Source: Candidatus Latescibacterota bacterium
GTDB lineage: Bacteria; Latescibacterota; UBA2968; UBA8231
Length of the DNA stretch: 44,364 nt
NCBI GenBank assembly: GCA_007571365.1
Contig: RKRN01000092.1
Coordinates: 1 to 44,364 of the forward strand
Direction: 5' to 3'
Of this stretch, positions 2-6,204 are shown piece after piece. Numbering within the stretch: position 1 is the stretch's first letter; the number at the start of each line of letters is the position of its first letter. A program made the position numbers and the translations under genes. The notes beneath the pieces are model-generated. The model ran no database searches, was not told the origin of the DNA, and saw nothing but the letters and a program-made list of their open reading frames with translations.

Positions 2-823
2 TCCATCCTCCCACCACCCACCCTACAAGAGGCTCTCGCCACCACCAAGATCCATTCGGTCGCCGGTATCCTGCCTCCGGGCCAAGCCCTCGTCGCCACC
101 CGGCCCTTCCGCGCCCCGCACCACACCATCTCGGACGCGGGCCTCATCGGCGGCGGTGCGTACCCGCGCCCGGGCGAGGTGTCGCTCTCCCATCACGGCG
201 TACTCTTCTTAGACGAGCTGCCCGAGTTTCGCCGCAATGTCGTCGAAGCCTTGCGTCAGCCGCTTGAAGACCGCGCTGTCACCATCACGCGGGCGCAGAT
301 CGCACTCGCCTATCCAGCGGATTTTACCCTCGTCGCGGCGATGAATCCCTGCCCTTGCGGATACCTTGCGGATACCCACCGCACCTGCGCCTGCTCTCCG
401 GCCGCCATTCGCCGCTATCGCACGCGCATTTCCGGGCCGCTCCTGGACCGCATCGACATCCACATCGAAGTGCCAGCCCTCGCCTACGACGACTTGGCCA
501 ACAAGCAAAACGGCGAGGACTCAGCGCACATCCGCCAGCGCGTCAACGCCGCTCGCCAGCGGCAACTCGACCGCTTTGCTGGCGAGCTATTCTGCAACGC
601 CCAGATGAGCACGCGGCACATCCGTCGCCACTGCTCGCTCGATGACGCCGGGCAAGTTCTCCTCGAAAAAGCTATGACCCGCCTCGGCCTGTCGGCCCGC
701 GCCTATGACCGCATCCTCAAAGTCGCCCGCACTATCGCCGACTTGGCCGACGCCCCGATCCAATCGCAGCATATAGCAGAGGCCATACAATATCGGGCCT
801 TGGATCGCAGCGGCCTCTTGTAG
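2..823 (+). CDS. comM: ComM/YifB-family Mg-chelatase-like AAA+ ATPase, C-terminal part (5' end outside window)
   Basis: This is the C-terminal ~273 residues of a ComM/YifB protein; the reading frame is open to the first base of the window, so the gene starts upstream. Family hallmarks seen: the [20 protein letters not shown] block, then [20 protein letters not shown] (Walker B) and the MNPCPCGY segment with its cysteine pairs, then the C-terminal Mg_chelatase_C helical region ending in YRALDR. A GTG at 179 lies inside the Walker B block and is not a start. ComM is a hexameric branch-migration helicase that helps integrate single-stranded DNA during natural transformation; this role is known from the family. 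Nothing looks degraded in the part that is visible. Confidence 0.93.
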
Positions 824-859
824 CTAGCGGCCGCATACCCAATGTAGCGCATTGCGTTT

Positions 860-897
860 CCGCGCTTCATATTCTGGTGAAAACGCGGCGAATTTTT
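860..897 (+). terminator. candidate hairpin terminator after comM
   Basis: The arms CCGCG-c-TTCA (860-869) and TGAA-aa-CGCGG (878-888) can pair around an 8-base loop, and a run of five T follows at 893-897. It lies between the comM stop and the start of the methylase gene. The stem has a small internal mismatch, so termination efficiency is uncertain. Confidence 0.4.
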
Positions 898-910
898 ACG
901 GGAGTCGTAC

Positions 911-3682
911 ATGGCGAATCTGCGCGAAGAAACCCTGAACACCTATCTGGCGACCCTGCTCGACCAGTACGACGGCATTCGTGCGACCCCTGAAATACGC
1001 GACGGCAGCGAAGCGATTGACATCGCGGTCACGCACAGCAATGCGACTGCTGCCATACCTATCTTCATAGAAGCTAAAATCGGCGACTCGGCGGCCAATC
1101 GCCGCAAAGCAGCCCAACAGGCGCGTTCGCGCTTATCGCCCGCCTCTCAGGCCCTAGCTTGGGGGCTTTGCTACCCAACGGACCTGCGGGACGGATCGCG
1201 CTCGGCGCAAGTTACGCAAAGAGCACTCGCCGCAGCTCACATTGCCTTCGCGCCGGTGCCACTCGTCGACGCAACCATCACGTGGCGCGAAGGCACGGTA
1301 GCCGACTTGGCCAACACCCTCCTAAACACCGATTTGTCGCAAGAGCGCGTGGCCGATGCCATTGAGTACACCGTGCGCCAAGTAGCGGCCTTGCTCTTTG
1401 AGGCCGGATGTGCGTCGGCCTTGGCCGACGCGCTGGCCCTGCCGAAAACAACCAAGGATCTGCGGGCGGCCACTCTCATTGCCGCGCTGGTGCTTTCCAA
1501 CGCGGCTTTGCTCCACCACCGCCTGCGGTTGGTGGACCACCTGCGGTATGTCCTGCCCCTTAAAGACGCGCTGAAGAAGCCGCCGATCTTGGGCCAAGAA
1601 GACAAGGCAGCAAAGGCAATTCGCCAGGCTTGGGAAGACATTCTCGACATCGACTACTATCCCGTCTTTGCCCCTGCCCTAGCGGTCTTGAACAAGGTGC
1701 TGGACCAGGCGGAAGCGCAGGCCGCGGTTCGCGTGATTGCCCAAAATGCGGTGGTCTATGCCGACGAACTCGCGTCGCTGCGCTTTGACCACGCTGGCCC
1801 GCTGTATCACCGGCTGCTCGCATCGGCCAAATACGACGGCTCGTTTTACACCAACAACGTCTCGGCCTTGCTGCTGGCCCGGCTCGCGCTCAGCGAGAAG
1901 GCAGTGGATTGGGGCGACGCCTCGGCCATTGCCAAGCTGAAGGTGATCGATCCGGCCTGTGGCACCGGGACGTTGCTGATGGCGGCCATGCACACCATGC
2001 GCGACCGCCACGAGCAGACGGCCGCTGCCGAAACCGACCTGTTGCATCTGACGCTGGTGGAAGACGTGCTGTATGGCCTCGACATCAACCGCCACGGCAT
2101 TCAACTAGCGGCCTGTAACCTGACGCTGGGCAATCCGCGGGTGGATTATTCGCGCATGAACCTATTTACCATGCGGCACGGGCCACAGGCCGATGGCGTT
2201 GCTAAGGCCGGTTCGGTGGATATTTTGGCCACGGCAAAGGATGAAACCGACCTCGCCAGCCTTACGTCGCCGCTGCCGACGGCGGAAGGGCTGGGGGCCG
2301 AACAGGTTGAATTGAGTGTCGGGCGCAACGGCTCGCTCGCCGGGCAGTTCGACCTGGTCATTATGAATCCGCCGTTCACGCGCAACGACATCCGCAACCG
2401 CCAGTACGATAGCCACAACCGCCGGGCGGTCCAAGAGCGCGAGATTCAGATCGCCCAATTCGTCAGAATACGCGGCGACGAACTGGCTTTTAGGGCGATT
2501 GATCAGACTAGTGTTAGAACGTTCTTTTCGCCTCTAGCAGATGTACTGTTGAAGAGCGACAGAGCCATCCTAGCAGAAGTTGTCCCGACGACCGCGCTGA
2601 CTAGTGCATCGGGCATTAATGAACGGAAATTCCTCGCCGACCGTTTCCAAATCGACACCATCATCACCAGCCACGACCCTAGGCGCATCAACTTCTCCGA
2701 GAACACGAGTATTCACGAATCCCTGCTGCTCGCCCGGCGCCCCGGTGAAGAGCGCAAGCCAACGCGGTTCATTTCGCTCGCCCGGATGCCGCGAGACGCC
2801 CACGAAGCCATTCTGCTGTCGGACTTAATCAATGGGGGGAAGCCGCTCGACAATTGGGGAACGGAACATGCGTGGCCGTGGCCGCGCATCCGCGAAGGCG
2901 ACTGGAATGCCGCGCAGTTTTACGACGGTGCGCTAGCCGATGCGATCTACGACCTCGCCGCACTCGCGGGCACGTGGCTCAGGCCGGCGGGCGAACTTTG
3001 CCATATCGAACCAGAAGGCCGAAGAGTCCGCGATGCCTTTCTGCGCGACCAGTCGCCGACTGCGCCTTGGACTGCGCCCATTCTCTGGGATCACGAGACG
3101 AGTGTTTGCGTTTGCATGGACGCTAAAGCGGATGTCGTCGGTACGCCCAAACCCCGCAAAGAAAGCTATGCTCGCTTTCTGACGGGAAAAGCCAGTCGGC
3201 TGCTCATCGCCAATCGGTTGAGAACGAACACGGTACGCACAGCGGCGTGTTATGCGAAAGAACCGCTACTTGGTTCCGCGTGGTGTCCAGTGCGGCCCAT
3301 AGGACCGAATCCCGTTTTAGAACAGGCGTTATGCGCTTGGTGGAATTCTACGCCCGGGAGCCTCACCCTGCTGCATTGTCGCGCCAAAGCCCTTGACTAC
3401 CCGCGATACGCCCTCAACTCACTCCGTTCCCTGCTCATTCCCGATCCGCACCACGTCGATGTGTCGCCGCTCGCCGAGGCTTTCGAGCAGACGCGCTCGC
3501 AAACGCTGTTGCCGTGGCCGCAGATGGCCGAGTGCCCTGTACGCGCCGTTCTCGACCAAGCCGCTGCTCGCGTCTTGCGTATGAATGGCCGCATCATGGC
3601 CGATTGGCGCGAGCGCATCGCCGCCGAGCCGACGGTGTCCGGGGGGGTTGTAGGTGAGAGCGGACGAAAAGGTGGGAAGTGA
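911..3682 (+). CDS. single-chain type IIG-like restriction endonuclease / N6-adenine DNA methyltransferase
   Basis: A 923-residue protein combining nuclease and methylase parts. Near the N-terminus (residues ~26-58) D37 followed by E54-A-K56 fits a PD-(D/E)xK nuclease core. SAM-binding motif I (DPACGTGT) is near residue 346 and the catalytic NPPF motif IV near 486, the order of gamma-class N6-adenine methylases. The last ~200 residues probably hold the target-recognition domain. No separate specificity or restriction subunit is adjacent, so this should act alone as a type IIG (BREX PglX-like or methylase-only roles are less likely because no partner genes are present). The ATG has a good GGGAG ribosome site 7 bases upstream. 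Recognition sequence cannot be told from the sequence. The frame is intact. Confidence 0.8.
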   Translation: MANLREETLNTYLATLLDQYDGIRATPEIRDGSEAIDIAVTHSNATAAIPIFIEAKIGDSAANRRKAAQQARSRLSPASQALAWGLCYPTDLRDGSRSAQVTQRALAAAHIAFAPVPLVDATITWREGTVADLANTLLNTDLSQERVADAIEYTVRQVAALLFEAGCASALADALALPKTTKDLRAATLIAALVLSNAALLHHRLRLVDHLRYVLPLKDALKKPPILGQEDKAAKAIRQAWEDILDIDYYPVFAPALAVLNKVLDQAEAQAAVRVIAQNAVVYADELASLRFDHAGPLYHRLLASAKYDGSFYTNNVSALLLARLALSEKAVDWGDASAIAKLKVIDPACGTGTLLMAAMHTMRDRHEQTAAAETDLLHLTLVEDVLYGLDINRHGIQLAACNLTLGNPRVDYSRMNLFTMRHGPQADGVAKAGSVDILATAKDETDLASLTSPLPTAEGLGAEQVELSVGRNGSLAGQFDLVIMNPPFTRNDIRNRQYDSHNRRAVQEREIQIAQFVRIRGDELAFRAIDQTSVRTFFSPLADVLLKSDRAILAEVVPTTALTSASGINERKFLADRFQIDTIITSHDPRRINFSENTSIHESLLLARRPGEERKPTRFISLARMPRDAHEAILLSDLINGGKPLDNWGTEHAWPWPRIREGDWNAAQFYDGALADAIYDLAALAGTWLRPAGELCHIEPEGRRVRDAFLRDQSPTAPWTAPILWDHETSVCVCMDAKADVVGTPKPRKESYARFLTGKASRLLIANRLRTNTVRTAACYAKEPLLGSAWCPVRPIGPNPVLEQALCAWWNSTPGSLTLLHCRAKALDYPRYALNSLRSLLIPDPHHVDVSPLAEAFEQTRSQTLLPWPQMAECPVRAVLDQAAARVLRMNGRIMADWRERIAAEPTVSGGVVGESGRKGGK

Positions 3683-3787
3683 GATCACATCCCTCGTCCT
3701 TTTTGCTCGGCATGAATGTCTGTGAATTCACTTGGCCGTTTATGATCCAGTTCCGATTGACCTGCCGATGCAGTAGCGTGTCGTCGT

Positions 3788-4444
3788 TCATTGCCCCTTT
3801 TGCCCTTGCTTGTTCTCTATTTCCAAAGCCAGCCATTCCCAATCTTCGCTCGTGCTTAAATTCAGTTGCCGTTCTTGATCGTCGTCGGAATTTAGGTCGA
3901 AGCGCAACCACTCTCCGCTGTGAGTATCAAGATCAACTTCGAGTATTATTACGCGATTTTTAATGGCCCATTCCATACGGACGCCGCCATCTTCGGTGGG
4001 ATAGGTGTGCGGAAGAGGTAATTCACCGGGATAACGAGCACCGAATGCGGCCGACAACCAAGCCAAGCCCACATGGCTGGGCGCGATGCCACTCCCCTAC
4101 AACCAGCCGTCCTCCATTTCCCTGAACTCGGCTAGCCGCGCCGCCACATCCAGCCGATCCAACAGACGGATGTGATCGACCGAGTCCAACTTACGCAGGC
4201 GGTTCTGCCAGTCGTACCATCCAGCCCCTTGAACGAGTACGCGCCGCCCATCCTCGCGCCCCTTGAACGCTTCGACGACCGTCGCCAAATGCCCTTTAGC
4301 AATGGGGGCAGACACCTTGTCGCCATATATCGGCTGCAACTCAAACGTCCTCTTTTTTTGGTCGCTACCACATACCGCGCCGCGGAGGGAAACCTCAATA
4401 CGCCGTTCCCGCACGAGGGGACGCAGTTGTTCTATGCTCGACAT
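3788..4444 (-). pseudogene. uncharacterised ~218-residue protein interrupted by an in-frame amber codon
   Basis: One continuous frame runs from the ATG at 4444 (AAAGGAT ribosome site upstream) to the TGA at 3788, broken only by a TAG at 4097-4099. The N-terminal part is 115 residues and ends EDGWL; directly after the TAG, in the same frame, come GSGIAPSH and then GLAWLSAAFGARYPGELPLP and a C-terminal part rich in acidic residues. The text on both sides reads as one protein, since EDGWL followed by a glycine-rich turn and LPLPH-YPT-GGV-EW is a pattern I recall from uncharacterised bacterial proteins; no function is known to me. A GTG at 4072 could restart translation of 94 residues. Either a point nonsense mutation, a sequencing error or stop readthrough explains it. 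It converges on the type IIG gene. Confidence 0.7.
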
Positions 4445-4560
4445 TGTACTATCCTTTCGGGAAGAGACAACCTCAGCGTAAGAAACACCTAGACCCCGGT
4501 CAACCTACTATAGCACCATTCGTTCAATAGCCGTTCCCCACCTCTAAAAAGGAAACAACC

Positions 4561-5490
4561 ATGGCCCCTAGTCCTGATTCGCGCATTCCTTGGTACACTC
4601 CCGTCGGCGCGGTAGCCAGCGAAAAACACACCCCAGACCAACCTCACCAAGGCAAGGTGCTGGCCGCCGTTCAAGCCCACGCCGACGATATTCCCCTCTT
4701 CTGCGCCGGCCTCGTTGCCAAACTCATCGCCGAAGGCTACACCGCCTATTTGATCCAGACCACCAACGACGAGAAATGCGGACCGGGAACAATGGGCGAA
4801 ACCATCCTCCAAAACGAGCGCGAAGTCGAAGTGCTGGCCGGGGCTTTGGGCTTCAAACAGGTCATCCACCTCGGCTACCGCAATCACTTCCTCGACGAAG
4901 CCGCCCCCACCGAGCTGCGGGCGCGGTTGGTCTTTCTAATTCGCGCCCTCAAAATCGACACCATCACCACCTTCAGCCCCTGGGGCCATTGGGAGGAAAA
5001 CCCGGATCACTACGTCACCGGCCAAGCCGTCGAAGCGGCCCGCTGGATGGCCGGCATGAGCAAGGACTACCCCGAACAACTAGCCTGCGGTATGCAGCCT
5101 CATTCGGCCCAAGACCTCTACTACTGGACCTGCCGCCCTGGTCAGCCCTACAACACGGTCGTCGATATAGCACCCCATCTCGACGCCAAGGTCGCCGCCA
5201 TGAGTGCCAACAAGGCCCAAGGGCCAGCCGGTGCCCACGGCCGTCGCCTCAAAGAACGGCTGGCGCGGCAGGGCAAGTATCTGCCCGCCTTGGGCACCGA
5301 CGACGAGGAAGCCGACCGCCAGTACATCCGCCTCTTTGGCTTGCAAGAGTACCAGCGCATCGGCGAGCCCTATGGCTTGTCCTACGCCGAGGCGTTCTAC
5401 TATATGCCGCCCGGCGGCACCTTTACCGGCGCGATGAGCGCAGCGGAGATCGAGTGCTACATCGCAGAACACGCCGAGGACTTGGGCTGA
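4561..5490 (+). CDS. PIG-L family (LmbE-like) deacetylase
   Basis: A 309-residue member of the PIG-L/LmbE zinc-dependent deacetylases, which remove N-acetyl groups from GlcNAc-type or related substrates. The N-terminal metal motif normally reads AHPDD; here it reads AHADD (residues 39-43), keeping the His and both Asp but replacing the Pro. The second metal-site histidine lies in ENPDHYVTG near residue 149. The core of the domain spans residues ~32-200; the C-terminal ~100 residues are an extension. The ATG has an AAGGAAAC ribosome site. No neighbouring gene points to the substrate. Cytoplasmic, as no signal peptide is seen. Confidence 0.85.
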   Translation: MAPSPDSRIPWYTPVGAVASEKHTPDQPHQGKVLAAVQAHADDIPLFCAGLVAKLIAEGYTAYLIQTTNDEKCGPGTMGETILQNEREVEVLAGALGFKQVIHLGYRNHFLDEAAPTELRARLVFLIRALKIDTITTFSPWGHWEENPDHYVTGQAVEAARWMAGMSKDYPEQLACGMQPHSAQDLYYWTCRPGQPYNTVVDIAPHLDAKVAAMSANKAQGPAGAHGRRLKERLARQGKYLPALGTDDEEADRQYIRLFGLQEYQRIGEPYGLSYAEAFYYMPPGGTFTGAMSAAEIECYIAEHAEDLG

Positions 5491-5539
5491 CAGCAGCTCA
5501 GCACAGCAATGACACGTTGGCTCAAACCTAATTCACTGC

Positions 5540-5591
5540 TTGACATCTATTTTTGATCGCACACGTTATGGGTACACTTTGAGGGGGAATT
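5540..5591 (+). promoter_or_regulatory. candidate promoter and ribosome site for the vapB-vapC locus
   Basis: A perfect -35 hexamer TTGACA lies at 5540-5545. The best -10 choices downstream (GTTATG at 5565-5570 with 19 bases spacing, or TATGGG at 5567) are weak and the spacing is long. A GAGGGGG ribosome site at 5581-5587 precedes the antitoxin ATG. Confidence 0.4.
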
Positions 5592-5836
5592 ATGAAAGCA
5601 TCTATTCTCGACTTAAGACGACGCATGAAAGAGGTTTTGCTCGCGCTCGACCGCAACGAATCGGTCACCATTTTTCATCGCGGCAAGGAAAAGCCATCCT
5701 GTCTCCTAGCCGACAGCGAACAAACAAATCTGTAAAAGACCACGAGGCTTTTGGAATGTGGCAGGACAGAAAAGATATGCTGGATATCGATGCTTATATC
5801 CGCAATTTACGCAAAGGCCGCTTGAATGATTTTTGA
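5592..5836 (+). pseudogene. VapB/Phd-type antitoxin with a one-base frameshift
   Basis: The ATG at 5592 opens MKASILDLRRRMKEVLLALD...HRGKEK, a Phd/YefM/VapB-type N-terminus, but this frame stops at 5733-5735 with unrelated residues. From about 5690 the antitoxin continues in the -1 frame as AILSPS...VKDHEAFGMWQD...YIRNLRKGRLNDF, ending at a TGA at 5834-5836. Restoring one A to the run of four A at 5689-5692 would rejoin the two parts into one ~81-residue antitoxin. The C-terminal WQDRKDM-IDAYIRNLRKGR part is the typical toxin-wrapping tail. The stop overlaps the start of the following toxin by 11 bases, the usual layout of such pairs. As read, no full antitoxin can be made. Confidence 0.75.
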
Positions 5837-6204
5837 TACCGATGTTGTAATATGGGTTTTCAGGGGCCACGAAGGGGCTGCAAACCTCGTTGAAAGTATC
5901 GCTGACCGTCAGATATCAATTATTACGTATATGGAATTTATCCAAGGTGCGAGAAATCGGCAGGAATTAAAAAAGATCAAGGATTTTCTTACGGATCTCG
6001 CCTTTCAGACCATGCCTCTCACTGAAAATATCGGCCACTGAGCGGCTGTATTATATGAAAGAATACACCATCGAGACAGCACTGTATCTGGCCGCTGCCT
6101 TGATTGCCGCAACAGCTATTGAACATCATCTAACACTTTGTACCGCCACTAGAAAACACTACCGGGCAATCAACGACCTCAATCTAAAAATCTTTCGGCC
6201 CTGA
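5826..6204 (+). pseudogene. VapC PIN-domain RNase toxin with a one-base frameshift
   Basis: The N-terminal 71 residues begin MIFDTDVVIWVFRG, where D4 and D6 mark the PIN active site, followed by TYMEFIQGARN with the second acidic residue. The frame then hits TGA at 6039-6041. In the +1 frame the rest of the domain follows without a gap: ATERLYYMKEYTIETALYLA, then AALIAATAIEHHLTLCTATR and a terminal NLKIFRP before a TGA at 6202-6204. Removing one A from the run of four at 6025-6028 restores a ~125-residue VapC. One catalytic acidic position after the break seems to be Ala (LAAALIAATA where DALIAATA is usual), so the protein may have been inactive even before the shift. VapC toxins cleave tRNA or rRNA. 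Confidence 0.75.

Follow-up and report, generated by a model that had tools for sequence, protein, structure and literature searches.

An internal TAG codon in a truncated PDC-M32A gene of a Latescibacterota bacterium is very probably a nonsense mutation in a decaying defence-candidate operon

The stretch of DNA analyzed here, referred to below as the window (44,364 nucleotides; contig C226 of the genome), carries on its minus strand one frame that begins with ATG at 4444, ends with TGA at 3790–3788 and comprises 219 codons. Codon 116 is a TAG (4099–4097), and the feature at 3788–4444 therefore consists of 217 sense codons, this internal TAG and the final TGA at codon 219. The peptides EDGWL, GSGIAPSH, and GLAWLSAAFGARYP are all translated from this one frame, in which no further stop exists, and the clean one-codon break without a frameshift that was proposed by the initial annotation is thus borne out. 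The piece before the TAG (4100–4444) corresponds to 115 residues, and the piece after it (3788–4096) to 102 residues plus the TGA. A sequence that, judged by eye, resembles a Shine-Dalgarno motif, AAAGGA, lies ahead of the ATG at 4444, and GTG at 4072 is the first in-frame start-like codon after the TAG. ARAGORN found no tRNA genes in the window.

When the TAG is read as Q, the frame matches PDC-M32A (PADLOC model PDLC04574) with an E-value of 2.1e-63 over profile positions 170–372 of 376. Searched against Pfam and NCBIfam at E ≤ 0.001, the read-through frame gives no match. In a BLAST alignment with an intact relative, which comes from a genome of the same genus (G006), window residues 11–208 pair with residues 167–364 of 373, and, because only that part of the relative is aligned, ∼165 N-terminal residues are absent. 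By its sequence the frame belongs to PDC-M32A, but it falls short of the full length of ∼375 residues that includes the N-terminal part, and on this comparison it is classed as a remnant of the family and not as an intact member. A gene of the PIG-L family begins at 4561 on the strand opposite to the remnant. The idea of an internal deletion, by which the first M32A codons would have been joined to codon ∼167, was tested with shuffled sequences: window residues 2–12 faintly resemble the start of the family, a resemblance that 67 of 1000 shuffles equal (17 relatives), and when the same residues are compared with the sequence immediately ahead of the junction, they are equalled by 484 of 1000 shuffles.

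The stop codon of the remnant overlaps by 4 bases (ATGA) with the start of a PDC-M32B gene, of which ∼34 codons are left on the minus strand (3690–3791) and the rest is missing. The match starts at the ATG at 3791 and covers profile positions 1–34 of 123 with an E-value of 4.5e-10. The open frame continues past the matched part to 3594 and overlaps the end of the oppositely oriented methylase gene, and similarity to PDC-M32B stops at ∼3690, beside the convergent methylase stop at 3682; no full-length PDC-M32B lies directly downstream of the M32A of the window. In many related loci, a protein of ∼120–142 residues directly follows M32A (a cluster of 22 proteins), and those of these downstream proteins that were scanned are the PDC-M32B of PADLOC. 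An M32B piece is found in 27 of 32 related loci, in some of them partial (L083, L109, and L110), and in none of the other five; the stop context of M32A is ATGA or GTGA in 20 of the 27. With the N-terminus missing and M32B cut, the remnant has lost sequence at both ends, and the TAG adds a third lesion. The initial annotation had spoken of a single gene split by the codon, which holds in the sense of one ancestral frame but not in the sense of an otherwise whole gene. As a separate observation, the M32B beside the intact M32A of G006 (L083:7119–7577) keeps its first ∼36 residues, which are followed by a DUF433 domain, and PADLOC model PDLC04581 starts at residue 36 of the M32B of L088; with the window copy also ending after ∼34 residues, this hints that the first ∼35 residues of M32B are a separable module.

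The remnant converges with an adenine-type DNA methylase gene on the plus strand (911–3682), which matches N6_Mtase (PF02384) with an E-value of 3e-8 and gives weaker Eco57I and MmeI matches, just under or at the cut-off; the methylase is not counted as part of the M32 pair. The methylase and the remnant together make up an insert of ∼3.65 kb (∼875–4526) between a YifB-like gene and the PIG-L family gene. At the base level, the insert is absent from two relatives of the genus: similarity to the window breaks off at 874 and resumes at 4527 in G003, and the corresponding positions for G006 are 875 and 4535. The distance between the YifB-like and PIG-L genes, measured from BLAST ends, is 60, 97, 338, 342, and 436 bases in five genus relatives and ∼3.7 kb here; the gaps of 338, 342, and 436 bases seem, by eye, to hold a small other reading frame. 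In two more genomes the same site is occupied by other sequence containing long ORFs, ∼5.0 kb in G008 and ∼2.2 kb in G005. Since the relatives hold different sequence there, the site between the two genes is variable. The methylase and the M32 pair might have arrived in one event. A repeat search over 820–5600, aimed at the borders of a mobile element, returned five direct pairs and four inverted ones, and no pair could be placed at the edges of the insert. About 55 bases upstream of the ATG of the remnant (4469–4524) recur with 80–82% identity at C181:5131–5184 of G000 and C58:186426–186477 of G007, and represent an interspersed intergenic repeat or a shared element near the right edge of the insert. 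Beyond the insert, a PIN-domain (VapC-like) frame at 5826–6041 matches PF01850 over profile positions 1–63 of 120 with an E-value of 9.7e-6 and seems, by eye, to continue in another frame from ∼6037; an antitoxin-like frame upstream of it, at 5592, appears likewise by eye to change frame near 5735. Neither this piece nor the continuation of the PIN frame has a Pfam match at E ≤ 0.1, and we can only guess that 5592–6200 is a second small broken system adjoining the first and that its two unmatched pieces are to be read as VapB/VapC.

A pattern-based scan of genome contigs combined with alignment yielded 53 candidate stretches, of which 32 encode relatives of M32A; both patterns fall within the C-terminal domain (one immediately precedes the TAG), which biases the sample towards copies that hold that part. 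An earlier contig scan with the window frame alone as the query had returned 62 stretches and no confirmed relative. The column of the TAG is occupied by Asp in 18 relatives, Glu in 10, and Asn in 4, and by a stop in none. Homologues that ended at EDGWL would have made two genes natural; because all 32 relatives continue through the codon, that reading is rejected. The 115 residues before and the 102 residues after the TAG, searched separately, each match all of 22 full-length or nearly full-length relatives (E ≤ 1e-3) at adjacent positions, which upholds the view that the frame is coherent on both sides of the codon. This set omits 10 of the 32 that are broken or short (L102, L104, and L107–L114); contig ends truncate two of its members, and the rows of L096 and L103 are identical. 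Conservation was scored on columns shared by at least 90% of the 22: the part of the frame before the TAG retains 17 of 19 and the part after it 20 of 24, and 24 further conserved columns are gaps in the window sequence before the TAG.

A search of 60 neighbourhood genomes gave nine matches in seven genomes, including that of the window, and a class-level search of 47 genomes gave the same seven. Plasmids contain no match to the window frame at E ≤ 1e-5, and four plasmid records match a full-length relative at <60% identity; four loci in viral contigs match the C-terminal part. The 10 other genomes of the genus contain no near-identical second copy of the stretch, the best foreign match being 74% over 96 bases.

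TAG looks like an ordinary stop in this genome as far as it is assembled. The genome is a bin of 5.47 Mb in 344 contigs, with 91.7% completeness and 6.15% contamination. Among 31 window ORFs, hand-picked from the list of long ORFs and not all of them checked as genes, TAG ends 13, TGA 9, and TAA 9. In two of the 13 TAG-ended ORFs, >100 open codons follow the TAG; one such tail is the next gene, which encodes an Uma2-family protein. The other tail comes after a complete nucleotidyl transferase (PF00483, profile positions 1–243 of 245) and matches nothing in the 10 other genomes of the genus. The earlier statement that no other gene of the window contains an internal TAG was checked on these 13 ORFs alone. 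The genome has release factor 1, which scores 488.1 bits and so exceeds its cut-off of 423.25, so that neither sign of a recoded TAG, rarity as a terminator or loss of RF1, is seen. ARAGORN found no CUA anticodon among 43 tRNAs in this 91.7%-complete genome, and the set is itself incomplete, because it has no Ile-GAT and no Pro-TGG gene. The best score for pyrrolysyl-tRNA synthetase in the same incomplete genome is 25 bits against a cut-off of 178.15, with a profile that also gives a match in 13 of 14 control genomes and exceeds the cut-off in only one. Recoding, suppression, and pyrrolysine are thus unsupported by the TAG use, RF1, the tRNA set, and the PylS score of the incomplete genome, and the initial view that the genetic code is not recoded agrees with these results. 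A second release-factor match in another genome (L116; G000 C292:16148–17170) falls under the RF1 cut-off and contains one in-frame TGA, which fits release factor 2 and its programmed frameshift.

The possible consequence of the stop was considered on a structural model of the intact G006 relative, predicted from the 22-row alignment with a mean pLDDT of 89.5 and a pTM of 0.68, which contains a beta-rich middle domain. A sequence search for solved relatives of M32A gave none at E ≤ 1, and Foldseek with the M32A model gave none at E ≤ 0.001. VIA-align over the list from Foldseek placed 12 of 997 chains at Z ≥ 8, the best being SilF (Z 9.8, rmsd 2.1, 71 aligned residues); a replication protein A chain follows at Z 8.5, and aspartyl-tRNA synthetases and single-stranded-DNA-binding proteins match lower, at model residues 168–255. 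All of these we take to be OB folds, and the middle domain of M32A (model residues 168–255) is accordingly predicted to be OB-fold-like. Most of the VIA-align rows lie below Z 8, where the tool says that perhaps only a common arrangement is seen, and they mostly span residues 168–255, so the other two domains are barely tested by them. The TAG aligns to residue 272 of the model, in a predicted loop between helices 256–264 and 280–293 inside the C-terminal domain. Because of this position, a product ending at the TAG after 115 residues would retain the OB-like domain, but of the C-terminal domain it would have the first helix and little else, the remainder being encoded after the TAG; the fold of the piece is assigned here on the G006 relative (L083), not on the piece from the window.

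Taken as a whole, the TAG is very probably a nonsense mutation in an already damaged PDC-M32A copy of a decaying defence-candidate operon, and the nonsense mutation put forward initially as the default explanation is still the best reading, with no sign of recoding. The candidate pair PDC-M32A/B, of which A is the first gene, and the methylase sit between genes that are neighbours in Latescibacterota relatives. Neither the N-terminal domain of A nor the greater part of B is left in this copy, which also has the stop, and translation ending at the TAG would give no more than the OB-fold-like piece of 115 residues, with the C-terminal domain lost. How the losses followed one another, that function is gone, and that the base call is right are what we infer here. 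Against decay stand the lack of any other stop or frameshift in the frame, the start with its Shine-Dalgarno-like sequence, and the conserved columns kept on both sides of the TAG. Because the frame is open, the start intact, and the columns kept, the decay would be recent, and the gene may have had a functional short form until the TAG arose, as the surviving start near a domain boundary also suggests.

The same single-codon lesion, with the rest of the frame open and conserved columns kept on both sides, is what an assembly or sequencing error would leave in a metagenome-type bin of 344 contigs; the real population would then have a sense codon and make a short protein of 218 residues. We consider such an error unlikely, for the remnant is damaged at both ends besides the TAG and a stop is unsurprising there. 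Domain fission in progress is still less probable, and we give it little chance: the N-terminal domain would have been lost near its boundary, the TAG gained later, and the OB-fold-like piece of 115 residues, which has a start and a ribosome site of its own, would still be made and used as a short protein, for instance a regulator that binds nucleic acids alongside the adjacent methylase. The position of the surviving start, close to where the OB-fold-like domain (model residues 168–255) is predicted to begin, and the 17 of 19 conserved columns kept before the TAG are in keeping with this, and C-terminal-only relatives indicate that parts of M32A can occur alone. Nevertheless, the OB-like part alone is seen in none of the nine matches from the 60 neighbourhood genomes (the 32-locus scan, with both of its patterns in the C-terminal domain, does not bear on this point), and the post-TAG piece is about as conserved as the pre-TAG piece, which argues that the break is recent. 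Programmed readthrough or a recoded TAG, to which the open and conserved frame past the TAG might point, is extremely improbable because all 32 relatives have a sense codon at that column, TAG ends 13 of 31 window ORFs with RF1 present, and 43 tRNAs lack a CUA anticodon while PylS stays under its cut-off. A suppressor tRNA could lie in the missing part of the genome, since the bin is fragmentary and the tRNA set incomplete. With the nonsense mutation as the preferred reading, one possible case of stop-codon recoding in a Latescibacterota bacterium is removed, which matters little in itself.

PDC-M32 is a candidate for phage defence as listed by PADLOC. The name appears among PADLOC predictions in Sinorhizobium prophages (PMC12429752), and in the portions of the literature that our search reached it was met as PADLOC predictions, with no functional test found. 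The window resembles the system in that its frame matches the C-terminal ∼200 positions of A and overlaps by 4 bases with the start of an M32B gene downstream; it differs in that the N-terminal part of A and the bulk of B are absent and that its A carries the TAG. At L097, the only such locus that was checked with Pfam, the order is HsdM, M32A, M32B, HsdS, and HsdR, and the intact pair lies inside a type I restriction-modification-like operon. The intact M32A of G006 (L083:4130–5302) is located two genes downstream of a nucleotidyltransferase with a SMODS domain (PF18144), presumably an arrangement as in CBASS-type defence. Several M32A copies in this genome group are broken: the second copy in G006 (L102) is distributed across three frames with stops, including one TAG elsewhere in the frame, and L107 and L108 carry a stop in the upstream part. 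Among the 32 related loci, L104 and L110 are also divided between frames. Pseudogenes that combine a nonsense codon with truncations are ordinary in bacteria, and the remnant in the window, with one stop codon, truncated ends, and relatives elsewhere that lack the stop, resembles them and has nothing distinctive about it.
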